From assembly GCF_016811235.1 (NCBI RefSeq), contig NZ_JAFBID010000013.1:1-64000 (forward strand): a stretch of 64,000 nt of DNA, written 5' to 3'. Shown piece after piece: positions 23,663 through 35,716 of this stretch. The position numbers and the translations under genes were made by a program. Position 1 is the stretch's first letter. Each line of letters opens with the position of its first letter. The stretch comes from Microvirga arabica. GTDB taxonomy: Bacteria > Pseudomonadota > Alphaproteobacteria > Rhizobiales > Beijerinckiaceae. Below the pieces are notes generated by a model. That model was given only the letters and a program-made list of their open reading frames with translations. It was not told where the DNA came from and did no database searches.

Positions 23663-24463
23663 TCAAGATTTCAGCATCCACTCGTGATCCGGGTCGTTGT
23701 GGAACTTCCAGACCCGCTTCGGGCCGGCCATAACGTTGAGGTAGTAGAGCTCGTAGCCATGGGGCGCACCGACCGGGTGATAGCCCTTGGGCACCAGCAC
23801 CACGTCACCGTTGGCTGCCGCCAGGGTCTCGTCGAGGGAGCGGTCGTCCGTATAGACCCGCTGCAGGGCGAAGCCCGAGGGCGGGTTGAGGCGGTGGTAA
23901 TAGGTTTCCTCGAGCAGCGACTCATGGGGCAGCATGTCCCGGTCGTGCTTGTGCGGCGGGTAGCTCGACCAGTGGCCGGATGGCGTGATGACCTCGACCA
24001 CGAGGAGGCTCTCCGCCGTCTCCGTTTCGGGCAGGATGTTGCGCACATGGCGCGTGTTCGTGCCCTTGCCGCGGGTTTCCTGACCCACCTGATCGGGACG
24101 GATCACGCGCGCCGGCAGCTTGCCCTCAGCCGGCGCGGTGCAGACAGCGATCTCGCAATCCGTCTCCGCTGTCAGAGACCACTCCGAGCGAGCCGGCGCA
24201 TAGAGCGACCACGGATCCGGCTCGAACGGCGAGGATCGCCCGCCGATGGTGCCGAAGTCCTGGCCGGCGCCGCCGACATGTGCGCGGCCTGAGAGCATGA
24301 CGATGCAGGCCTCTCGTTCTCCCGTCGCTTGTTTCAGGCTCTGCCCGCTTTTCAGCCCGTAGACCTCAAACCCCACATAGGTCCAGCCGGCGGATTCCGG
24401 CGTGATCGCGTGGATGCGTCCGTTATCATTGGGCGCCGACGGTTTGACGAGAAGCTTCGACAT
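23663..24463 (-). CDS. iolB: 5-deoxy-glucuronate isomerase IolB
   Basis: A 266-residue bicupin of normal IolB length. Putative metal ligands are H171 and H173 in PPHKHD, E185/E186 in LLEETYYH, and H229 in PKGYHPV. It converts 5-deoxy-glucuronate to 5-dehydro-2-deoxy-gluconate in myo-inositol breakdown. It is the last gene of the minus-strand iol operon, 12 bases after iolE. Confidence 0.95.
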   Translation of the reverse strand: MSKLLVKPSAPNDNGRIHAITPESAGWTYVGFEVYGLKSGQSLKQATGEREACIVMLSGRAHVGGAGQDFGTIGGRSSPFEPDPWSLYAPARSEWSLTAETDCEIAVCTAPAEGKLPARVIRPDQVGQETRGKGTNTRHVRNILPETETAESLLVVEVITPSGHWSSYPPHKHDRDMLPHESLLEETYYHRLNPPSGFALQRVYTDDRSLDETLAAANGDVVLVPKGYHPVGAPHGYELYYLNVMAGPKRVWKFHNDPDHEWMLKS

Positions 24464-24475
24464 CGCATGTGGTCC

Positions 24476-25360
24476 TTATCGCAGGCCGGCTTCCTTGAGG
24501 TACCGGGTGAGATTGGCATAGCCCATCTTGGCATAGGTGAGCGGATGCGCCTTCTTCGGATCCTGCTCCGCCTCGATCACCACCCAGCCGCTGTAGCCCG
24601 GCAGTTCTTTGAACACGGAAACGAAATCCACTATGCCGTCACCCGGCACGGTGTAGACGCCCTCGATGACCGAATCGAGAAAGCTCCAACCTTCCGCGCG
24701 CGAGCGCTCCATCACGCTTTTGCGCACATCCTTCGTGTGCACGTGGCTGATGCGGCTGCGGTAGCGGCGGGCGAGCGCTGCCGGATCAGCCCCGCCCCAG
24801 GTGGCGTGGCCCGTATCGAGGAGGAGATGAACCGCCTCGCCCGTTGAGCGCATAAAGGCGTCGATGTCGGCTTCCGATTCCACGATGGTGCCCATGTGGT
24901 GGTGGTAGACCACGCGCACCCCCTCCTGCAGCGTACGCTCCGCCACTTGCGTAATGCGGCGGCCGAACTCGGCCCAGTCGCCGTCCTTCATGACGGGACG
25001 CTGCGACAGGGGCTTGGAACGGTCGCCATGAATGGCGTTCGAGGTCTCGGCGAAGACGAGGACGTTCGAACCCATGGACTTCAACAGGTCGAGATGTGGG
25101 CGCAAGGCCTTCATCTCCGCGTCGGCGTCGCGCATGAGAAGCTCGGCGGAATACCACCCGGACACGCAGGCCATGTCGAACGGCGCGAGCGCCTTCTTCA
25201 GGGCTTCCGGCTGGCGCGGAAACTTATTGCCGAGTTCCATGCCCTCGAAGCCTGCTTCCTTGGCCTCAGCCAGGCACACCTCCAGCGGCGTCTCGCCGCC
25301 GAGCTCCGGCATGTCGTCGTTGGACCAGCCGATGGGATTGGCCCCGATGCGGATCGTCAT
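24476..25360 (-). CDS. iolE: Inosose (scyllo-inosose) dehydratase IolE
   Basis: A 294-residue xylose-isomerase-like TIM-barrel protein starting MTIRIGANPIGWSNDDMPELGG, of the usual IolE length. Segments MELGNKFPR, LLLDTGHATWGG and HVHTKDVR carry the acidic and histidine metal ligands. It dehydrates 2-keto-myo-inositol to the trihydroxycyclohexane-dione used by IolD. It lies between iolD and iolB with short gaps and the same direction. Confidence 0.95.
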   Translation of the reverse strand: MTIRIGANPIGWSNDDMPELGGETPLEVCLAEAKEAGFEGMELGNKFPRQPEALKKALAPFDMACVSGWYSAELLMRDADAEMKALRPHLDLLKSMGSNVLVFAETSNAIHGDRSKPLSQRPVMKDGDWAEFGRRITQVAERTLQEGVRVVYHHHMGTIVESEADIDAFMRSTGEAVHLLLDTGHATWGGADPAALARRYRSRISHVHTKDVRKSVMERSRAEGWSFLDSVIEGVYTVPGDGIVDFVSVFKELPGYSGWVVIEAEQDPKKAHPLTYAKMGYANLTRYLKEAGLR

Positions 25361-25381: not shown

Positions 25382-27229
25382 TCAGTCGCCCACCCGCTGC
25401 GCGGCGAGGGCTGCCTCATAATCCTTGCGCGCGGCTTTTACCTGATCGCGCGACGAGACCTCCGGCACCGCCACATCCCACCAGTGGCCGCCTTCATCCG
25501 TGGAGGCGAGGGGGTCGGTGTCGATGACGATCACGGTGCTTCGCTCGGCGTTCCGCGCCTTCTTCAGCGCATCCTCCAGCTCGCCGATGCCCTTCACCTT
25601 CACGGCCTGCGCACCGAGGCTTGCGGCGTGCGCGGCGAAGTCGATGTCGGGCAGCGTCACGTGGTTGGTGTGCTGCAGGAGATTGTTGAAGCTCTCGCCG
25701 CCTGTGGCGCGCTGCAGACGGTTGATGCAGCCATAGCCGCGATTGTCGAGGAGTACGACAGTGAGCTTCCGGCCCAACATCACGGAGGTGGCGAGTTCCG
25801 AATTCATCATGAGGTAGGAGCCGTCGCCCACCATCACGATCACCTCGCGGGAAGGGTCGGCCATCTTCACGCCGAGCCCGCCGGCGATCTCGTAGCCCAT
25901 GCAGGAATAGCCATATTCCATGTGGTAGCCCAGCGCGGTGCTCGCCTTCCAGTGCTTGTGCAGTTCGCCCGGCAGGCCGCCGGCCGCGCAGACCACCACG
26001 TCGGTCGGCTGCGAATTGCGCTGCACAGCGCCGATCACCTGCGCGTCGGAGGGCAGTTCCGCGTTGGTCGGGTCGGTGAAGCGCGCAGCGGTATCGAACC
26101 AGCGGGTCTTTTCCTCGCGCGCCTTCCCAGTCAAAGCTTCCGGTGCCTTCCAAGTGCCGAGCGCCCGGCTCAGCTCTTCGAGGCCCACGCGGGCGTCAGC
26201 GACGAGCGGCAGCGCATTGTGCTTTGTTGCGTCGAAGGCCTGCACGTTGAGGCCGACGATGCGCCGGTTCGGGTTCTTGAACAGAGCCCAGGAGCCGGTG
26301 GTGAAGTCCTGCAGGCGGGTTCCGACTGCGATCACCACGTCGGCATCCTCCGCGAGCGCATTGGCAGCCCCCGTGCCGGTGACGCCGACCGCACCGAGAT
26401 TAGCCTGATGGTCATGGGGCAGGCTCGACTTGCCGGCCTGCGTTTCGCCCACGAAGAGGCCGTGCTTCTCGGCGAACGCCGCCAGCGCCTGCTCCGCGCC
26501 CGAATAGAGCACACCGCCTCCGGCCACGATGAAGGGCTTCTTCGCGTTTCGAATGAGATCGGCGGCTTCGGCAAGTTCCGTCTCGTCCGGGCGGATGCGG
26601 CGCGGCGTCCAGATCTTCCCTGCGAAGAAGCTTTCCGGATAATCGTAGGCCTCGGCCTGGGTATCCTGACACAGCGCGAGCGTCACCGGACCGCAATCGG
26701 CAGGATCCGTGAGCACGGCCATGGCGCGCTGGAGCGCCGGGATGATCTGCTCCGGGCGCGCGATGCGGTCGAAGTAGCGCGAGACAGGCCGGAAGCAGTC
26801 ATTGGCCGAAACCGTTCCATCGGAGAAGCTCTCGATCTGCTGCAGCACCGGATCGGGCCTGCGGTTGGCGAAGACGTCCCCGGGCAGAAGCAGCACCGGC
26901 AGGCGGTTCACATGCGCCACGGCTGCCGCCGTCACCATGTTGGTGGCGCCGGGACCGATGGAGGTGGTGCAGGCCATCATACGCCGGCGACGCGACGCCT
27001 TGGCGAAGGCGATGGCCGCATGGGCCATGCCCTGCTCGTTATGCGCGCGGAAGGTGGGAAGCGTCTCGCGAACTCCGTGCAGGGCCTCGCCCATGCCCGC
27101 CACGTTGCCGTGGCCGAAGATGGCCCAGACGCCGCCGAAGAGCGGCATCACCTGTCCGTCGATCTCCGTCTTCTGTGCCGTCAGGAACCGGGCGACGGCT
27201 TGCGCCATGGTCAGGCGGATCGTGCTCAT
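25382..27229 (-). CDS. iolD: 3D-(3,5/4)-trihydroxycyclohexane-1,2-dione acylhydrolase IolD
   Basis: A 615-residue ThDP-dependent enzyme. The ThDP motif begins GDGSYLMMNSELAT and ends LLDNRGYGC at about residues 475-510. TSIGPGATNMVTAA is in the N-terminal domain. It opens the inositol-derived ring to 5-deoxy-glucuronate. Its ATG overlaps the stop of the membrane protein upstream (ATGA), showing translational coupling. Confidence 0.95.
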   Translation of the reverse strand: MSTIRLTMAQAVARFLTAQKTEIDGQVMPLFGGVWAIFGHGNVAGMGEALHGVRETLPTFRAHNEQGMAHAAIAFAKASRRRRMMACTTSIGPGATNMVTAAAVAHVNRLPVLLLPGDVFANRRPDPVLQQIESFSDGTVSANDCFRPVSRYFDRIARPEQIIPALQRAMAVLTDPADCGPVTLALCQDTQAEAYDYPESFFAGKIWTPRRIRPDETELAEAADLIRNAKKPFIVAGGGVLYSGAEQALAAFAEKHGLFVGETQAGKSSLPHDHQANLGAVGVTGTGAANALAEDADVVIAVGTRLQDFTTGSWALFKNPNRRIVGLNVQAFDATKHNALPLVADARVGLEELSRALGTWKAPEALTGKAREEKTRWFDTAARFTDPTNAELPSDAQVIGAVQRNSQPTDVVVCAAGGLPGELHKHWKASTALGYHMEYGYSCMGYEIAGGLGVKMADPSREVIVMVGDGSYLMMNSELATSVMLGRKLTVVLLDNRGYGCINRLQRATGGESFNNLLQHTNHVTLPDIDFAAHAASLGAQAVKVKGIGELEDALKKARNAERSTVIVIDTDPLASTDEGGHWWDVAVPEVSSRDQVKAARKDYEAALAAQRVGD

Positions 27230-28323
27230 GCGTGCTCCAATCGAAGGGCGTCGGCGTGGGGCGGACGCAGTTTCTTAAGGGTATCCGGCAGGTGATCTGC
27301 CATCCAGTTCGAAAGAGTCTCGTGATACCGGTGCAGGAGCAAGCCAGCGGCGATGACCAGAATGCCGATGAAGGACAGGGCAAAGGGGAAAAGCAGCGAA
27401 TCGGCAAAAACCTTGCTGGCTAAATGGCCGAGATAGAGGCAAACGCCGATGGCGCCGAACAAAGCATAGGCCCGCCGCATCAGGAAGACCGACAGAAGGA
27501 TGAGACCCACGTTGATGAGGCAGTAAATGGCCTTGGCGACCTCGCTGTCGCTGCTCGAAAAGGTTAGGCCTCCCCAAAACGCCATGAGCCCCGACAGGTG
27601 AAGCCAGAAGGCGAAATCATGATCCTTGCTGCGCTTCACATCCACGACCCATGCCGTGAGCATGACCACAAGGCCGAACGCCATCGAGACGTTCTTCCGC
27701 GCCCCCCAGTTCAAATCGTCGTTCTGGAACAGCCAAGGAGTCAGATCCATGGACATGAACCAGAGCGCATAGGCGATGACGAAGACGATGAAGGAAAAAG
27801 GATAGAACCGCAGGGCCAGGAGGCCGACCAAGATGGTGACAATCTCCATAGGCAGCCAGCTGCTTTTGATCCAGACGTGAAAGCCCTGGTAGCGGCCAGG
27901 TGCGCCCGCTTCATCCCACCAGCCCATGGCATCTTGGATGCCGAAAACCACGAGCGGAGCCATGGCCACCGCAACGGTCACCAGCAGCCCAGCGGGCGTC
28001 TTCAGGTTGCGACCGTGCCACAGGACGTGTCCGCCTAACGTGAACAGGGCAGCGTAGATGATGCCAATGATCGCGAGAGCGCCTCCGCCCAGCATGTTGA
28101 AGGCAAGGGTCGTGAAGAGGCTCATGGCCCCCATGATGATCAGCGCGCCGGCATACCAGAGCAGACGCGCGAGATCGAAGCGGACCTGCTCGTGAGATGG
28201 CTGAACGGCCTTTTGCGGAACGGAGGCCCGGGCACGCAGCACGGCGAGGAGGCCGCTGATCTGGTCGTCCCGGAGTGCGATGGCGCGTCCTGCTGCTTTG
28301 ACGTCATCTTCCGAATAAGCCAT
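27226..28323 (-). CDS. Multi-pass membrane protein of unknown function inside the iol operon
   Basis: A 365-residue protein. A soluble N-terminus of about 55 residues (MAYSEDDVKAAGRAIALRDD) is followed by about ten hydrophobic spans separated by short loops. A basic C-terminal tail ends RLEHA. It lacks transporter motifs I can recognise. The architecture loosely recalls DUF2157-type membrane proteins, but I am not certain. It starts 12 bases after iolC and overlaps the iolD start, so it is made with the inositol enzymes. A role in inositol transport, sensing or membrane adaptation is only inference from position. Confidence 0.88.
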   Translation of the reverse strand: MAYSEDDVKAAGRAIALRDDQISGLLAVLRARASVPQKAVQPSHEQVRFDLARLLWYAGALIIMGAMSLFTTLAFNMLGGGALAIIGIIYAALFTLGGHVLWHGRNLKTPAGLLVTVAVAMAPLVVFGIQDAMGWWDEAGAPGRYQGFHVWIKSSWLPMEIVTILVGLLALRFYPFSFIVFVIAYALWFMSMDLTPWLFQNDDLNWGARKNVSMAFGLVVMLTAWVVDVKRSKDHDFAFWLHLSGLMAFWGGLTFSSSDSEVAKAIYCLINVGLILLSVFLMRRAYALFGAIGVCLYLGHLASKVFADSLLFPFALSFIGILVIAAGLLLHRYHETLSNWMADHLPDTLKKLRPPHADALRLEHA

Positions 28324-28335
28324 GGCCGCCTCCGG

Positions 28336-30249
28336 TCACGCAGCTTTTGCGCGGCCGGACACCCGCTGCCAGGCGTCCACGAGGCGCTGGAACCGGGCAG
28401 CCATGTCGGCGATGGCCGCCTCGTCGTTGATCTCACCTTTCAGCCAGCGGCGCGCGGCGTCGTTGAAGATCGTGCGACCGACGGCGAAGCCCTTTACCTG
28501 CTTCTCGCTCGCAGCGGCCGCAAACGCTGCTTCCAGCTCGTGCTCCGGCGCTTCGAGGCCGAGCAGCACGATGCCGCGGCAATACGGGTCGTTCACTGTG
28601 ATCACTTCGCCGATAGCATGCCAGGCGGCATCGTCGCGCTGCGGCTCGAGCTTCCACCAATCGGGCTTGATGCCGAGATCGTAAAGGCGCTGCAGGATAA
28701 CCGCAAGGGTATCGGTCTTGAGTGCCCCATGCTTGCCGGCGATGATCTCGACCAGCAATTCGCGGCCGATGCGGCGCGCGGCATCGTGGAGGCGCAGCAG
28801 GTCGCGCTCCTGGCGCTCCTTCAGCTCCGGCGGATCGTCGGGATGGTAGAAGCACAGGCACTTGATGGTGTGCCCCACCGGCCATTCCACGAGCTTCGCG
28901 CCGAGCGAGCCGCCGCCCTCGAAATCGAGCGGGCGCGAGCCCGGCAGTTCCACCGGACGGCCGATCCAGAACGGGTGGTCGGCAGCGCGGAACAGGGCCT
29001 CGCGGCCATAGGTGCCGTCGATCAGCATGCCGAAGCCGGGGCGGCCATCCGCCACCCGCGCTGCGGCATGTACAGCCAGCACCTTGAAGTCGGGGATGCG
29101 CTCGACCGGCGCGCCGATCTCCTGGGCCATCGCTTCCAGCTGCATGCGGTGATCGATGGCAAGCGCCATGAGGGTGTCGGGTTGCGGCCGACGTGTGGTC
29201 GCCCAGTGAATGTGGTTGATCTCCTGGTCGAAGCGCAGCGCCTTGTGCCGGCTGCCCGTTTTCAGGAAATGCTGCAACTCCGGGAAGGTCGGGATCTCGG
29301 GTGAGCAGAGCAGGCGCGAGACTGCAAAGGCGCCGCTCGCATTGGCATAGGCGCAGCAGGTCTCGAGCGGTTCGTTGCGCAGCCACCCGCGCAGGAAGCC
29401 GGACAGGAAGGCGTCGCCGGCACCCAGCACGTTGTAGACCTCGACCGGGAAGCCGGGCCCCTTCACCCCATCATCAAGCGAATCCGGAATGGCATCGGGA
29501 AAGACTACGCAACCCATGGGGCCGCGCTTGCACACGATGGTCGCTTTCGAGGCTGTGCGGATGGCACGGATCGCCTCCAGCGTATCCTCGGATCCGCCCG
29601 CGATGTGCAATTCTTCTTCCGTGCCGACGATGAGATCGCAATCGGCCAGGATCGGCTGCAGATGCTCTGTGACTGCATCGGAGCGCACATAGCGCGACTC
29701 ACCCGCGCCATGGCCGAGCAGGCCCCAGAGATTGGGGCGGTAATCCACGTCGAACACGACCTTGCGTCCATTCGCTTTCGCCACGCGAATAGCCTTCTTC
29801 TGCGCGGCGGCGGTCGTTTCCCGGGAAAAATGCGTGCCTGTGACGACAATGGCTGCCGCCGAAGCGATGAAGGTCTCGTCGATGTCCTCTTCCGTCAGCG
29901 CCATATCGGCGCAGTTGTCGCGGTAGAAGATGAGCGGGAACGAGTCCTCATCGCGCACGCCGAGGATCACGAGCGCCGTCAGGTGCTGCTTGTCCGTGAT
30001 GATGCCTTGCGTGGAGACGCCCTCGCGCTCCATCTGCTCGCGGATGAAGCGGCCCATGGCCTCGTCCCCGACGCGGGTGACGAGGCCGGATTTCAGGCCG
30101 AGCCGGGCCGTGCCGATGGCGATGTTGGCCGGGCAGCCGCCGACTGCCTTGGAGAAGGAGGCCATGTCCTCCAGCCGCCCGCCCACCTGCTGGCCATAGA
30201 GATCGACCGAGGAGCGGCCGATGGTGATGACATCGAGGGCTGGCTTCAT
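28336..30249 (-). CDS. iolC: 5-dehydro-2-deoxygluconokinase IolC fused to a DUF2090 (aldolase-like) domain
   Basis: A 637-residue fusion. Residues 1 to about 325 are a PfkB-type sugar kinase with the catalytic motif GAGDAF at 276-281 (base D279). Residues about 335-637 form a DUF2090 domain, proposed in such fusions to cleave the phosphorylated product, replacing IolJ. The start at 30249 is supported by GGGAGGAA upstream; an in-frame ATG 30 bases earlier has no such site. It is first in the minus-strand operon, behind the IolR-type sites at 30311-30354. No separate iolJ is seen in the window. Confidence 0.94.
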   Translation of the reverse strand: MKPALDVITIGRSSVDLYGQQVGGRLEDMASFSKAVGGCPANIAIGTARLGLKSGLVTRVGDEAMGRFIREQMEREGVSTQGIITDKQHLTALVILGVRDEDSFPLIFYRDNCADMALTEEDIDETFIASAAAIVVTGTHFSRETTAAAQKKAIRVAKANGRKVVFDVDYRPNLWGLLGHGAGESRYVRSDAVTEHLQPILADCDLIVGTEEELHIAGGSEDTLEAIRAIRTASKATIVCKRGPMGCVVFPDAIPDSLDDGVKGPGFPVEVYNVLGAGDAFLSGFLRGWLRNEPLETCCAYANASGAFAVSRLLCSPEIPTFPELQHFLKTGSRHKALRFDQEINHIHWATTRRPQPDTLMALAIDHRMQLEAMAQEIGAPVERIPDFKVLAVHAAARVADGRPGFGMLIDGTYGREALFRAADHPFWIGRPVELPGSRPLDFEGGGSLGAKLVEWPVGHTIKCLCFYHPDDPPELKERQERDLLRLHDAARRIGRELLVEIIAGKHGALKTDTLAVILQRLYDLGIKPDWWKLEPQRDDAAWHAIGEVITVNDPYCRGIVLLGLEAPEHELEAAFAAAASEKQVKGFAVGRTIFNDAARRWLKGEINDEAAIADMAARFQRLVDAWQRVSGRAKAA

Positions 30250-30310
30250 GCTATTCCTCCCGCTCTCGGGTGTAAGCACCGGTCGAGGGCCGTTCGGCCC
30301 TTGCGGCTAT

Positions 30311-30392: not shown

Positions 30393-31382
30393 ATGATCAG
30401 GATCGCCGTTCTGGGCGCTGGCCGAATTGGCCGTATTCACGGGCGCAATGCCGCCAGCCATCCCGATGCCCGCCTCGTGGCGGTCGCCGATCCACATGCT
30501 CCTGCGGCGCAGGAGCTGGCGGCAGCGACAGGCGCGGAGGTCGCGTCCCTGGACGAGATCGTCGAGCGCTCCGATGTGGACGCCATCCTCGTCTGCACCC
30601 CGACCACCACCCACGCCGACCTGATCGAGCGCGGGGCGCGTGCCGGCAAGGCGGTGTTCTGCGAGAAGCCGGTTGATCTGTCGAGCGCCCGCATCGAGGC
30701 CTGCCTCGCCACGGTGGAGAAGGCCGGCACGCCGCTGATGATCGGCTTCAACCGCCGCTTCGATCCGAACTTCGCCGCCTTGCGCCGCCGCCTTGCCGAC
30801 GGCGAGGTGGGCGAGGTGGAGCTTGTGACGATCCTCTCCCGCGATCCCGGCCCGCCGCCGGTGAGCTACATCGCCACCTCGGGCGGCCTGTTCCGAGACA
30901 TGATGATCCACGACCTCGACATGGCCCGCTTCCTGCTGCTCGGCGACGAGCCGGTGGAGGTGCATGCGGTCGGCTCATCCCTGGTGGACCCGGCCATCGG
31001 CCAGGCGGGCGACGTGGACACTGCTGCCGTGATGCTCAAGACCGCCAAGGGCCGGATCGTCCAGATCTCCAACTCCCGCCGCGCCACCTATGGCTACGAC
31101 CAGCGCATCGAGGTCCACGGGTCGAAGGGCATGATCCGCGCCGGCAACATCCATCGCACCACCGTGGAGGTGGCGAACGCGTCCGGCGTCACCGCCGATC
31201 CGGTGCAGGACTTCTTCCTTGAGCGCTATGCGGATGCCTATCGCGACGAGCTCACCACGTTCCTGAACGCCATCCGTGACGGCAAGCCGTGCAATCCCAC
31301 CGGGCACGACGGCCTCATGGCGCAGCGCCTCGCGGATGCGGCGACTGAGTCAGCTCAGAGCGGCAAGCCTGTGCGGCTGTAA
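30393..31382 (+). CDS. iolG: Inositol 2-dehydrogenase IolG
   Basis: A 329-residue Gfo/Idh/MocA enzyme. The NAD-binding motif GAGRIGRIH is at 8-16, E91-K92-P93 holds the catalytic lysine, and D169 and H173 lie in FRDMMIHD, with the D/H spacing of known inositol dehydrogenases. It oxidises myo-inositol to scyllo-inosose. It is transcribed divergently from iolC. Its 3' side is a nested palindromic repeat. Confidence 0.92.
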   Translation: MIRIAVLGAGRIGRIHGRNAASHPDARLVAVADPHAPAAQELAAATGAEVASLDEIVERSDVDAILVCTPTTTHADLIERGARAGKAVFCEKPVDLSSARIEACLATVEKAGTPLMIGFNRRFDPNFAALRRRLADGEVGEVELVTILSRDPGPPPVSYIATSGGLFRDMMIHDLDMARFLLLGDEPVEVHAVGSSLVDPAIGQAGDVDTAAVMLKTAKGRIVQISNSRRATYGYDQRIEVHGSKGMIRAGNIHRTTVEVANASGVTADPVQDFFLERYADAYRDELTTFLNAIRDGKPCNPTGHDGLMAQRLADAATESAQSGKPVRL

Positions 31383-31645: not shown

Positions 31646-32509
31646 CTACCCCTCCGCCCGCTTCTCTGCCGTACCCACGGCAAGCGCCATCGCCAGCGCG
31701 AACGATGCTGAGAGCGACCGGAACGCACCGAAATCGGCCTCCGCCACTTCAAGCCAAACATCGGCGCTCGTCACCAGCGGGCTGAAGGCGGAATCCGTGA
31801 TCGCCACCACGGGCACGTCGCGCTGCGCCGCTGCGGACGCGAGGTCGGCGGTAACAGGCGCATAGGGCGTGAAGCTGATGGCGAGCACCGCGTCGCGCTT
31901 GGTGGCGATGGCGAGCTGCTCCGGGCCGAGCTGGCCCACATGGTCGATGAGAATGGCCCGCACCCCCAGCTTGCCGAAGGCATAGGCACAATAGGCGATG
32001 ACGGGAAACACCCGGCGAGCGCCGAGCAGATAGATCGTATCCGCCTTGGCGAGCGTCTCGATGGCGCGGGACAACTCCTCCAGGCGTACGGAATCGCTCA
32101 TCCGCTCCAGCGACACGGTGGCCGCATGGGTAAAGCCCTCGAGCAGGGACGCGGCGTGCACATGGTGCCCCTCCGCCTCGCGCAGACCCTTCAGCCGCTC
32201 GCGATAATCGGGAAACCGCTCCCGTAACCGGTCGCGAAAAATCTGCTGCAGGTGGGAAAAGCCGTCATAGCCCAGGCTCTTGGCAAAGCGCACAAGGGTG
32301 GAGGGCTGCACGCCGGCATGCTCGGCAATGCCCGCTACCGTGCCGAAGGCCACGTCCTCCGGGTGTTCGAGTGCGAAGGCGGCGAGCTGCTTCAGGCGTT
32401 TGGGCATCGCATCGCGACGGCCGAGCAGAAGCGCCTTGAGCCCTTCGTAGTCGCCCGGGGCTTCGCTCACCTGCGCGTCTGCGCCGTTCATGCTGTCCCC
32501 TGGCTCCAT
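31646..32509 (-). CDS. iolR: RpiR/MurR-family regulator, probable IolR
   Basis: A 287-residue RpiR-type regulator. The N-terminal helix-turn-helix is in VAGIAEHAGVQPSTLVRFAK and the C-terminal SIS domain holds YLLGARRVF and ISFTPYAP. In rhizobia and Caulobacter an RpiR-family IolR represses inositol genes and responds to a pathway intermediate. The start at 32509 (MEPGDSMNG) is chosen; an ATG six codons later, behind AGGGGA, is possible. It lies between iolG and the ABC transporter genes, downstream of a perfect GGAA-N6-TTCC. Confidence 0.88.
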   Translation of the reverse strand: MEPGDSMNGADAQVSEAPGDYEGLKALLLGRRDAMPKRLKQLAAFALEHPEDVAFGTVAGIAEHAGVQPSTLVRFAKSLGYDGFSHLQQIFRDRLRERFPDYRERLKGLREAEGHHVHAASLLEGFTHAATVSLERMSDSVRLEELSRAIETLAKADTIYLLGARRVFPVIAYCAYAFGKLGVRAILIDHVGQLGPEQLAIATKRDAVLAISFTPYAPVTADLASAAAQRDVPVVAITDSAFSPLVTSADVWLEVAEADFGAFRSLSASFALAMALAVGTAEKRAEG

Positions 32510-32557
32510 GCGCTCACCCCAGGTCCAGATCGGACCTTGACCCGATCCTACAAAAAT

Positions 32558-32571
32558 GGAATAAAAATTCC
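32558..32571. promoter_or_regulatory. IolR operator, perfect GGAA-N6-TTCC
   Basis: GGAATAAAAATTCC lies 49 bases upstream of the iolR start and about 200 bases upstream of the binding-protein gene. It matches the published inositol-regulon motif exactly. It probably mediates autoregulation and may also repress the transporter operon. Confidence 0.7.
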
Positions 32572-32591
32572 AATATATAAAGAAAAAGGTT

Positions 32592-32639
32592 CTGGCGTTC
32601 CGCACAGCGGGATGACCGAACTGGAAGAGGGAACGCCAG
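32592..32639. repeat. Inverted repeat in the leader of the transporter operon
   Basis: CTGGCGTTCC (32592-32601) is perfectly complementary to GGAACGCCAG (32630-32639), with 28 bases between. It may form a hairpin in the 5' leader of the binding-protein mRNA or be a second binding site. No T-tract follows it. Confidence 0.45.
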
Positions 32640-32773
32640 GAAACGGACGATTCGCTCTCGAATCTCTGGTGTTTCCCTGACAACCCATACCAGCGGCCCT
32701 GGAAGCCGCAGCGCTCGGACAGGCCAAATCTCTGGCAGATCGCGCGTATGAAATACCAGTTGGGAGGAAGCAC

Positions 32774-33715
32774 ATGAAATCACTTGTCACAGGCCTTGCC
32801 GCAGCCGCCGCTCTGACCCTCGCGGCGATGGCGCCGGCTGCCGCGCAGCAGAATTCCCGCATCATCGTGGTCAGCCACGGCCAAGCCAACGATCCCTTCT
32901 GGTCGGTGGTCAAAAACGGCGTGGCGGCAGGCGGCCAGGACATGAAGGTCCAGGTCGATTACCGCGCGCCCGAGACCTTCGACATGGTCGCCATGAGCCA
33001 GCTCATCGACGCCGCCGTGAACCAGAAGCCGGCCGGCCTCATCGTGTCGATCCCCGATGCCTCGGCGCTCGGGCCGTCGATCCAGAAGGCGGTGGCGGCC
33101 GGCATTCCGGTGATCTCCATGAACTCGGGCTCCGACGTGTCGAAGAAGCTCGGCGCTCTGCTCCATGTGGGGCAGGACGAGGTCGAGGCCGGGCGCATCG
33201 CCGGCGCCAAGCTCAAGGAGATGGGCGGCAAGGTCGGCCTGTGCGTGAACCAGGAGGTCGGCAACGTCTCGCTCGACCTGCGCTGCAAGGGCTTCACGGA
33301 AGGGTTCGGCGGCAAGGTGACGGTTCTGCCGGTCTCCAACGATCCGGCGGATATCCGCGCCAAGGTGAAGGCGGCGGTTGCGGCTGATGCCTCCATCGAC
33401 ACGATCCTGGCGCTGGGCGCCGGCACGGCCGGTGAGCCGTCGGTTGCGGCCGTGAAGGAAGCAGGCAAGACCGGCGCCATTCGGGTTGCCACCTTCGACA
33501 TGTCGGCGGGCTTCCTCAAGTCGGTATCCGCCGGCGAGGCTGTTTTCGCCATCGACCAGCAGCAGTACCTCCAGGGCTATCTGCCGGTGGTGTTCCTGGC
33601 CAATTACGCCAAGTACGGCCTGATGCCGGGCGGCGACGTGGCCTCGGGTCCGAACCTGATCACCAAGGAGAAGGCCGCTCAGGTGGTCGACCTGTCCGCC
33701 AAGGGCATCCGCTAA
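32774..33715 (+). CDS. Sugar ABC transporter substrate-binding protein, probably inositol (IbpA-like)
   Basis: A 313-residue periplasmic binding protein of the ribose/fructose type. The signal peptide (1-24, ending PAAA) is followed by NSRIIVVSHGQANDPFW and a VSIPDASAL hinge region. GGGAGGAAGCAC precedes the ATG. The substrate is inferred to be inositol from its place in the iol regulon next to iolR. Fructose or another polyol cannot be excluded from sequence. Confidence 0.9.
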   Translation: MKSLVTGLAAAAALTLAAMAPAAAQQNSRIIVVSHGQANDPFWSVVKNGVAAGGQDMKVQVDYRAPETFDMVAMSQLIDAAVNQKPAGLIVSIPDASALGPSIQKAVAAGIPVISMNSGSDVSKKLGALLHVGQDEVEAGRIAGAKLKEMGGKVGLCVNQEVGNVSLDLRCKGFTEGFGGKVTVLPVSNDPADIRAKVKAAVAADASIDTILALGAGTAGEPSVAAVKEAGKTGAIRVATFDMSAGFLKSVSAGEAVFAIDQQQYLQGYLPVVFLANYAKYGLMPGGDVASGPNLITKEKAAQVVDLSAKGIR

Positions 33716-33724
33716 ACGATACTC

Positions 33725-33762
33725 AAAGCCCGCGGTTCACGTGGATCGCGGGCTTTTCTTTT
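33725..33762 (+). terminator. Intrinsic terminator/attenuator after the binding-protein gene
   Basis: AAAGCCCGCG pairs with CGCGGGCTTT around a 12-base loop and is followed by TCTTTTC. It sits between binding-protein and permease genes. In such operons a partial terminator gives more binding protein than membrane subunits. Confidence 0.75.
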
Positions 33763-33788
33763 CAATGTATTTATTCGGGGAGGCGCCC

Positions 33789-34931
33789 ATGGTGAACACC
33801 ACTCAGCCGACCGCAGATCTCAGCCCGCCTCCAACGGTCAAGCAAATTCAGGACGAGCGCCTGAGGGATGTCTCCCTCGTCACCAAGATCATGCGACGTC
33901 CCGAACTCGGCGCCTTGGCCGGCCTCATCCTGGTCGCGATCTTCTTCGTCTCCACGGCTGATGCGTCCATGTTCACGCTCGCCGGCATCATGAACATCCT
34001 CTCGCCGGCAGCGCAGCTCGGGATTCTCGCCATCGCGGCGGCGCTCTTGATGATCGGCGGCGAGTTCGATCTCTCCATCGGCTCGATGGTCGCCTTCACC
34101 GGGCTCATCTTCGGCGCGTTCCTCACCCTCAACAGCTGGCCTCTGCTGCTGGCGATCGCTGCCACCTTCGTTGTTGCAGCCCTGCTTGGGGGGCTCAACG
34201 GCCAGATCGTTATCCGCAGCCGGCTGCCATCCTTTATCGTGACGCTGGCTTTCCTGTTCATCCTGCGCGGGCTCTCGCTGGTGGGCTTGAAATGGGCCAC
34301 CGGAGGCTCGACCCAGATGCGCGGCATCGGCGATCAGGCCGGTGAGGGCATCATACGAGAGCTGTTCTCCGGCGTTGCCTTCGAGGGCGTGTTCGCGTGG
34401 CTCGCCGCCAACGACCTCATCGGCAAATTCCCCAATGGCACACCGACGGTCACGGGCGTTCCGGTCTCCATTGTCTGGTTCGTCGGCTTCGCGCTTCTCG
34501 CCACCTGGGTTCTCCTGCGCACGCGCGCGGGCAACTGGATTTTTGCAGCCGGTGGTGATCCCAATGCGGCACGCAATTCCGGCGTCCCGGTGGATCGGGT
34601 CAAGACCGCGCTCTTCATGCTCACCGCCGTTGCGGCCGCGCTCGTGGCCGTTCTCACAGTGCTCGATGCGGGCTCCACCGATGCGCGGCGCGGCTTCCAG
34701 AAGGAGTTCGAGGCGATCATCGCGGCGGTGATCGGCGGCTGCCTGCTCACGGGCGGCTACGGCTCGGCCATCGGTGCGTTCTTCGGCGCCATCATCTTCG
34801 GCATGGTGTCCATCGGCCTCACCTACACGCGGTTCGACTCCGATTGGTTCCAGGTGTTCCTCGGCGCCATGCTGCTGCTCGCGGTGCTGTTCAACAACTT
34901 CATCCGCCGGAAAGTCACGGGAGAGCGCTGA
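33789..34931 (+). CDS. Sugar ABC transporter permease (RbsC/FrcC-like)
   Basis: A 380-residue permease with about nine to ten spans. It includes [14 protein letters not shown] in the early part and the later [14 protein letters not shown], the BPD_transp_2 signature loop. The start at 33789 follows GGGGAGGCGCCC. It overlaps the ATPase gene through TGATG. It forms the channel for the probable inositol importer. Confidence 0.9.
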
Positions 34932-35716
34932 TGGATAGCCAAGTTCCGCTCATCGAGATCCGCAACCTCGTCAAGCATTTCGGCTCGGTGATCGCGCTCT
35001 CCGGCGTGTCGCTCAGCGTCCATCGCGGCGAGGTCATGTGCCTGCTCGGCGACAACGGTGCCGGCAAGTCAACGCTGATCAAGACCCTCGCCGGCGTTCA
35101 CCGCCCGACCTCGGGCGACTTCCTGGTGGAAGGAAAACCTGTGAGCTTCGCCAGCCCGCGCGATGCGCTCGATGCGGGCATTGCTACGGTCTACCAGGAC
35201 CTCGCGATGATCCCGCTCATGTCGGTGACGCGCAACTTCTTCATGGGCCGCGAGCCGGTAAAGGGCGTCTGGCCATTCCGCCGGGTCGACTTCGATCATT
35301 GCGACGAGGTCACCCGCGAGGAGATGCACCGGATCGGCATCGACGTGCGCGACCCGCATCAGGCGGTCGGCACCCTGTCGGGCGGCGAGCGCCAATGCGT
35401 GGCGATTGCCCGCGCGGTCTATTTCGGCGCCAAGGTGCTGATCCTCGACGAGCCGACTTCGGCGCTCGGCGTGGCACAGACCTCCATGGTGCTGAAATAC
35501 ATCCATCAGGTGCGCCAGAAGGGGCTGGGCGTCATCTTCATCACCCACAACGTGCGCCACGCCTATGCGGTGGGCGACCGCTTCACGGTGCTCAACCGCG
35601 GCAAGACGCTCGGCACATACGAAAAGTCGGGAATCCAGATCGACGAGCTGCAGAACCTCATGGCTGGCGGCAAGGAGCTGCAGGCGGTGTCGGCGGAACT
35701 CGGCGGGATGGTGTGA
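34931..35716 (+). CDS. Sugar ABC transporter ATP-binding protein, single domain (FrcA-like)
   Basis: A 261-residue ATPase. Walker [10 protein letters not shown] is at 40-48, the signature is LSGGERQ and Walker B is [12 protein letters not shown]. Many sugar importers of this class use a 500-residue double ATPase (RbsA type). This is the short single-domain FrcA type, so two copies should assemble. It starts at the permease stop (TGATG). Confidence 0.9.

Follow-up and report, generated by a model that had tools for sequence, protein, structure and literature searches.

Introduction

MFS inositol transporters and ATP-binding cassette (ABC) inositol importers are known classes of membrane protein encoded alongside inositol catabolic genes. 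Here we consider a gene that shares this setting, lying between iolC and iolD in a 64,000-nucleotide stretch of the Microvirga arabica genome (contig NZ_JAFBID010000013.1, positions 1 to 64,000; the window is this whole stretch). Its product differs from those transporters in matching no transporter profile. A large survey of iol genes exists (PMC9430895).

The closest described systems lie outside inositol metabolism. Proteins with DUF2157 (PF09925), themselves uncharacterized membrane proteins, resemble the window protein in having N-terminal soluble helices followed by membrane spans; they differ in that the DUF2157 match in members of the present family covers just ~80–110 residues near the N terminus. 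The portions of the literature available mention DUF2157 solely as part of LiaF and contain nothing on DUF4401 or "DUF2157 domain-containing" proteins; GDYXXLXY alone is named (e.g. PMC5915739). No report of a membrane protein between hslV and hslU, the site of a distant relative, was found in the literature. A further comparison is offered by the type VII secretion protein EccD, in which a soluble N-terminal domain, ubiquitin-like in its fold, precedes a multi-span membrane domain. PMC6986878 describes EccD as a component of a secretion complex, with 11 spans or more, and in ESX-3 the EccD3 dimer surrounds a hydrophobic cavity with lipid-like densities. The window protein shares with EccD the overall plan of soluble N terminus and multi-span region, and ESX chains that we take to be EccD head the VIA fold comparison for two models; it differs in span number, in the nature of the N terminus and in the absence of sequence evidence linking its family to EccD.

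On balance, we think it probable that the gene is a functional passenger: it would encode a DUF2157-related inner-membrane protein with a general membrane or envelope role, inserted once between iolC and iolD and later lost or exchanged in most species.

Results

The gene and its junctions

The open reading frame (ORF) occupies exactly 27226–28323 on the minus strand and runs from an ATG start to a TGA stop. A sequence-only reading of the window had placed it between iolC and iolD, 12 nt after iolC and overlapping the iolD start by ATGA, and both coordinates and neighbour profiles agree.

27226–28323, minus strand: gene for a DUF2157-related membrane protein of 365 residues, probably with ten spans (ORF, 55-protein alignment and AlphaFold model; DUF2157 is matched by 25 of the 55 family members and not by the window protein)
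28324–28335, minus strand: 12-nt gap behind the iolC stop, holding the membrane gene's GGAGG ribosome-binding site (from the sequence)
27226–27229, minus strand: ATGA overlap of the membrane gene's TGA stop with the iolD ATG (from the sequence)

The GGAGG lies a few bases 5' of the membrane gene's ATG, and the last codons of the gene contain a GGAG at the Shine-Dalgarno position for iolD.

A protein search finds the gene in 6 of 48 genomes of the genus, the window's and five others, one per species, so the insertion is not peculiar to this strain, the circumstance that would have counted against the sequence-only reading. All six have the order iolC–gene–iolD, with the gene 12–18 nt behind iolC and ATGA shared with iolD. 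The overlap is no independent evidence, since ATGA stands at the iolD start in 47 of the 48 genomes (in the 48th, G017, the alignment begins a few residues inside iolD). Spacing, overlap and conservation in all six insert genomes support co-transcription of the membrane gene with iolC and iolD and, judging from sequence, their probable translational coupling. The earlier expectation of co-translation with the inositol enzymes survives as probable coupling; the inositol function it seemed to hint at is not supported.

Every one of the 48 genomes has iolD, and 42 have it without the membrane gene; in these, the end of the iolC alignment lies 42–219 nt from iolD. The longest such spacer (219 nt, G038:C2, L110) holds, by eye, a repeat or inverted-repeat-like stretch. 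A family profile matches nine of the 48 genomes: the same six, full-length and strongly, plus four weak places (E 9.7e-5 to 5.7e-4; G001, G012, G022 and G027, G012 having both kinds), which are a different gene, between hslV and hslU. Two genomes have a second iolD-like gene, 53% identical, beside an iolE-like gene (L123 in G019, L124 in G045), with no iolC match of at least 45% within 10 kb.

Homologues and iolD outside the genus

Homologous loci were found in genome contigs from Bradyrhizobium, Methylocystis, cyanobacteria, Pseudomonas, Acidobacteria-type metagenome-assembled genomes (MAGs) and others (62 loci; MAG binning was taken as given), and in 11 genomes of the order. None of these 73 loci has iolB, iolC, iolD, iolE or iolG in the surrounding DNA, which for many contig loci extends 8 kb to each side and for several is shorter. 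No steady gene partner is visible either. Neighbours include an enolase-family protein and a TonB receptor in Bradyrhizobium, TrcR in Methylocystis, serine-hydrolase-like and P450-like proteins in a cyanobacterium, and a FabI-like protein beside one relative; Pfam backs the enolase-family and TrcR names, the others being our reading. Six of the 11 order genomes with a homologue (G117, G153, G164, G221, G283 and G285) have no iolD at E≤1e-180 in a search that scored at most three candidates per genome.

Conversely, apart from G000, 155 of the 397 order genomes searched have iolD matches; among the best-scoring 29 out-of-genus loci, which were inspected, 26 have iolC beside iolD with gaps of 11–305 nt and 3 have no iolC in view, and the membrane gene is absent from all 29 within 1.5 kb on each side. 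The survey of iol operons proposed earlier thus recovers the insertion within the genus and not in these loci beyond it. With 42 of 48 congeners lacking the gene, no iol gene in the DNA surrounding its relatives elsewhere, and six of the 11 order genomes with a homologue lacking iolD at that threshold, the description "locked into the inositol operon" is not supported. Conserved association with iol genes across genera, as would mark an inositol-pathway protein, is not observed.

An inositol transporter or enzyme was rejected for lack of any profile match and of iol association in the DNA inspected outside the genus. A softer version of that idea is an accessory protein that aids uptake, export or sensing of an inositol isomer or intermediate in the species keeping it. 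Such a role would suit the strict position in the operon, the tight spacing in 6/6 genomes and the purifying selection described below. It fits poorly with the many congeners that have iolD and no membrane gene, with the 0/73 outside loci and the six order genomes just mentioned, and with a protein that matches no transporter family. Moreover, the window and the five other insert genomes all encode an ABC sugar importer close to iolG, and therefore a missing inositol importer is no evident gap for the membrane protein to fill. We consider the accessory role unlikely.

A probable single entry followed by loss or exchange

In a quick IQ-TREE phylogeny built from partial iolC, iolD and iolE sequences, the six hosts occupy three places; a single clade is rejected (p-AU 0.00167), and three changes are needed, at least two of them forced by well-supported branches. 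FastTree likewise places the hosts in three positions, with differing deep branches. In the tree of the gene itself (32 rows, 6 from the genus), the six genus genes group together with support of 100/100, and relatives from other genera of the family and order fall outside that group. Because the hosts do not form a clade, the gene does, and its 3' end is still present in the spacer of G005, which lacks the insert, the sequences suggest that the gene probably entered once within the genus and was followed by losses or exchange of the junction.

In G005 (L076, G005:C12), the end of the spacer can be aligned with the closing codons of the G000 gene, the iolD ribosome-binding site among them. With the 17 nt adjoining the iolD ATG left out, a local test scores 51 against a shuffle maximum of 29 (0/200), and an anchored test gives an identity of 0.72 against a shuffle maximum of 0.53 (0/500). 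We read this stretch as an old junction or a recombination trace. A similar C-terminal motif, LRPAHA, also closes homologues from Methylocystis (L024), a Geminicoccaceae MAG (L028) and other MAGs (L023, L025, L031); therefore the G005 stretch came from the gene, rather than the end of the gene from the spacer.

The next spacer in the local test, that of G046 (7/200), aligns away from the gene's 3' end. Ten spacers (G001, G006, G010, G015, G024, G028, G031, G034, G039 and G042) have tails reading LRRLRP or a near variant, compared with LKKLRPPHADA in the gene. In the anchored test each is reached by 1–15 of 500 shuffles, the genomes being related and not independent, and spacers without the motif attain similar values (G032, 9; G037, 16; G009, 17 of 500). 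No scar is claimed for the LRRLRP-type spacers.

Re-acquisition of the gene by G000 through recombination was examined by window-wise identity along its junction. The first 100 nt of its iolD have a mean identity of 0.95 to eight insert-less sisters versus 0.83 to the five insert species, and the last 200 nt of its iolC are about equally far from both sets (0.80 and 0.83 versus 0.79 and 0.86). Either repeated loss or local exchange could account for this pattern.

Intact frames and selection

None of the six frames has an internal stop. Over the 15 pairs, dN/dS of the membrane gene is 0.14–0.34, with 0.14 in the closest pair, and identity among the six insert genomes is 64–90% for the membrane gene and 88–93% for iolD. 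Because the frames are intact in six genomes and selection is purifying, this is not a chance ORF; by these sequence measures the gene is functional and kept under purifying selection, with looser constraint than the iolD enzyme.

A membrane protein related to DUF2157

A hydropathy scan of the window protein shows eight clear peaks. Its AlphaFold model (mean pLDDT 84.4, pTM 0.79) has two short soluble helices at residues 5–34 and further helices that, as we group them, make ten membrane spans between residues 51 and 331, as the sequence-only reading had anticipated with its soluble N terminus and about ten spans. If the N terminus is inside, the inner loops carry 16 Lys and Arg residues and the outer loops 2, which would place both termini in the cytoplasm. 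An internal repeat, first half against second, was considered and finds no support (hhalign probability 0.2%); one overlapping half-split scored high solely through residues common to both parts.

The absence of recognizable transporter motifs is also borne out: the window protein has no Pfam or NCBIfam match at E≤1 and matches no transporter profile. PHROGs give two weak matches at noise level (E 0.31 and 0.45), PADLOC gives nothing above noise, a sequence search of the PDB gives no match at E≤10, and a plasmid collection contains no homologue at E≤1e-5.

Relatives tell more. The family alignment comprises 55 proteins, namely the window's, five from the genus, 40 of the 62 contig loci and nine of the 11 order loci; near-duplicates, incomplete proteins (including L140) and the too distant L134 were left out. 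It has 23 invariant columns, among them E160, D193, S213, N271 and R283 in or adjoining spans. DUF2157 is matched at E≤1 by 25 of the 55 members (best 6.7e-12). When 18 members including the window's were scanned singly, 11 matched, L041 above the gathering score (45.8 bits; PF09925 gathers at 32.4 bits) and ten below it; neither the window protein nor L136, the other genus member in that set, matched. Profile searches against membrane DUF families, suggested in the sequence-only reading, thus name a related domain in the relatives and none in the window protein. The sequence comparisons indicate that the family is related to DUF2157, and that the Pfam gathering score does not admit the window protein as a member. 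Other weak profile matches are isolated, each in 1 of 55 members (for example OST3_OST6, 0.0037; MerF, 0.015; ThrE, 0.089).

A DUF2157 search of the 48 genus genomes finds none of the six iol-located genes. It matches in two genomes, above the cut-off in G017 and weakly in G002 at an hslVU-type gene, and in 2 of 14 controls. The G017 protein (L180, G017:C8:297879-298295) scores 110–114 bits, and its contig differs from the one that carries iolD.

The hslVU-type gene encodes a distant paralogue of ~350–360 residues, present in 11 of the 48 genus genomes (L182–L192) and lying between hslV and hslU in 11/11 loci examined; the names hslV and hslU are our reading of Pfam Proteasome and AAA_2 matches. 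It is absent from the window's own genome and also lies between hslV and hslU in G233 (L134), of another family. Profile comparison joins the hslVU-type proteins to the iol-located family over 325 columns (Prob 98.5, E 3.3e-15), and L134, the one example aligned by BLAST, is 27.5% identical to the window protein. The two types are thus similar in length, homologous and each lodged in a two-gene operon; they differ in being distant in sequence and in occupying different operons. Two branches of the family have thus lodged in two-gene operons that are unrelated to each other; such lodging is not particular to inositol genes, and this argues that location tells little about substrate. Three of the 11 hslVU-type matches (G002, G005 and G043) carry one internal TGA.

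Fold comparison with EccD

The PDB was searched with two models, one for the window protein and one for a family member from a cyanobacterium that shares 44% identity with it; their alignments share members, so the two are not independent. For the window model, the top seven VIA rows are all chains of ESX type VII secretion systems (Z 10.0–11.3, rmsd 5.5–9.4, 201–226 residues aligned; next row 7.1), and the same holds for the cyanobacterial model (Z 9.9–11.1, rmsd 4.2–8.2, 186–229 aligned; next row 7.5), with the proviso that Z under ~13 can reflect a common arrangement in helical bundles. The entries give titles alone, and from length and the multi-span region we take these chains to be EccD. 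Foldseek ranks an ESX-3 chain first for the cyanobacterial model (E 0.032, prob 1.00). With the window model, MFS proteins such as NorA come first (E 0.11) and an ESX-5 chain 34th (E 0.80). At E≤0.001 Foldseek finds nothing for either model. NorA and other MFS proteins, HGSNAT and rhodopsins were set aside, as they are not significant in Foldseek or fall below the ESX chains in VIA.

Sequence searches for EccD were negative. Its profile TIGR03920 (cut-off 94.95 bits) does not match the window protein and reaches 2 of the 55 members at noise level (best E 0.31), and none of ten rescanned proteins matches. A search for EccD in three Streptomyces plasmids also found none, but 14 controls were equally silent, so it provides no evidence.

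These comparisons raise the idea that the family has the EccD membrane fold and forms dimers around a lipid-filled cavity, where it would move or store a lipid-like molecule or scaffold a complex. The agreement of both models on ESX chains and the Foldseek rank of ESX-3 speak for it. The modest Z scores, with alignment mostly about spans 1–7, the MFS proteins that come first for the window model, the lack of any PDB sequence match and the silence of the EccD profile speak against it, and we consider it unlikely. We treat the EccD likeness suggested by the models as a lead only. A bolder form, which we likewise rate improbable, makes the family a free-standing relative of the EccD membrane domain, widespread among proteobacteria, cyanobacteria and further phyla; it would form a cavity without a secretion machine, and would have been placed twice in core two-gene operons (iolC/iolD and hslV/hslU), to be made in step with abundant soluble enzymes.

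Neighbouring genes

The remaining features of the inositol region are as follows.

23663–24463, minus strand: iolB (TIGR04378)
24476–25360, minus strand: iolE (TIGR04379)
25382–27229, minus strand: iolD (TIGR04377, 972.6 bits)
28336–30279, minus strand: iolC with a C-terminal DUF2090 domain (Pfam; NCBIfam NF047869, kinase/aldolase fusion, and TIGR04382)
30393–31382, plus strand: iolG, divergent (TIGR04380)
31646–32773, minus strand: RpiR-type regulator, start uncertain (Pfam HTH_6 and SIS)
32774–35716, plus strand: ABC sugar importer, comprising binding protein, permease and ATPase (Peripla_BP_4, BPD_transp_2, ABC_tran)

The ORF of the RpiR-type regulator extends to the start of the next gene, and for two of five relatives the alignment does not begin until residue 84 or 98; translation may in fact start inside the ORF. 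The importer is assigned to inositol by position only. All three of its genes recur close to iolG in each of the five other insert genomes. Of 13 insert-less stretches, 9 have its binding protein in the corresponding position and three end before reaching it. The remaining one, the L115 stretch, has no match to the binding protein, but only a few hundred bases are present there.

Discussion

We propose that the product is a ten-span protein of the inner membrane whose small N terminus is helical and cytoplasmic, and that it belongs to a widespread, uncharacterized DUF2157-related family. A single insertion between iolC and iolD would have occurred in an ancestor within the genus, keeping a tight gap behind iolC, and the start of iolD would have come to overlap the stop of the new gene. 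The protein would then be made whenever the inositol genes are on, by accident of where it landed, and it would perform no step in inositol breakdown or uptake. Its role may instead be structural or lipid-handling in the envelope, where it would probably form a cavity or a scaffold and not act as a classical transporter. In most species the gene would later have been lost or exchanged, this being the direction of events that we think the trees suggest. Passenger status is the better supported part of this proposal; topology and scaffold role are put forward more conditionally.

Several observations weigh against it. All six genomes keep the gene at this one tightly spaced site, although a mere passenger might be expected to turn up at other sites in the genus too, where none is found. 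The same patchiness would also arise if the insertion were of benefit for inositol use in a few niches. A scar is firm in G005 alone of the 42 spacers; others are suggestive at best, and many show nothing. Selection is weaker than on iolD (dN/dS 0.06–0.11, 15 pairs). At the threshold given above, iolD is present in five of the 11 homologue-bearing order genomes (G129, G233, G311, G355 and G426), the homologue in G233 being the distant hslVU-type protein only. Finally, the scaffold role is put forward as a conjecture.

A neutral relic, functionless now and heading for loss in each species, would agree with the gene's rarity in the genus, the G005 remnant and a protein that changes faster than iolD, but six frames free of internal stops and the dN/dS values, lowest in the closest pair, make this very improbable.

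The functional-passenger account would carry a caution against inferring function from operon position, since a gene may be conserved and closely spaced and still be a passenger. The gene also marks an uncharacterized membrane family that is present in contigs of several phyla.

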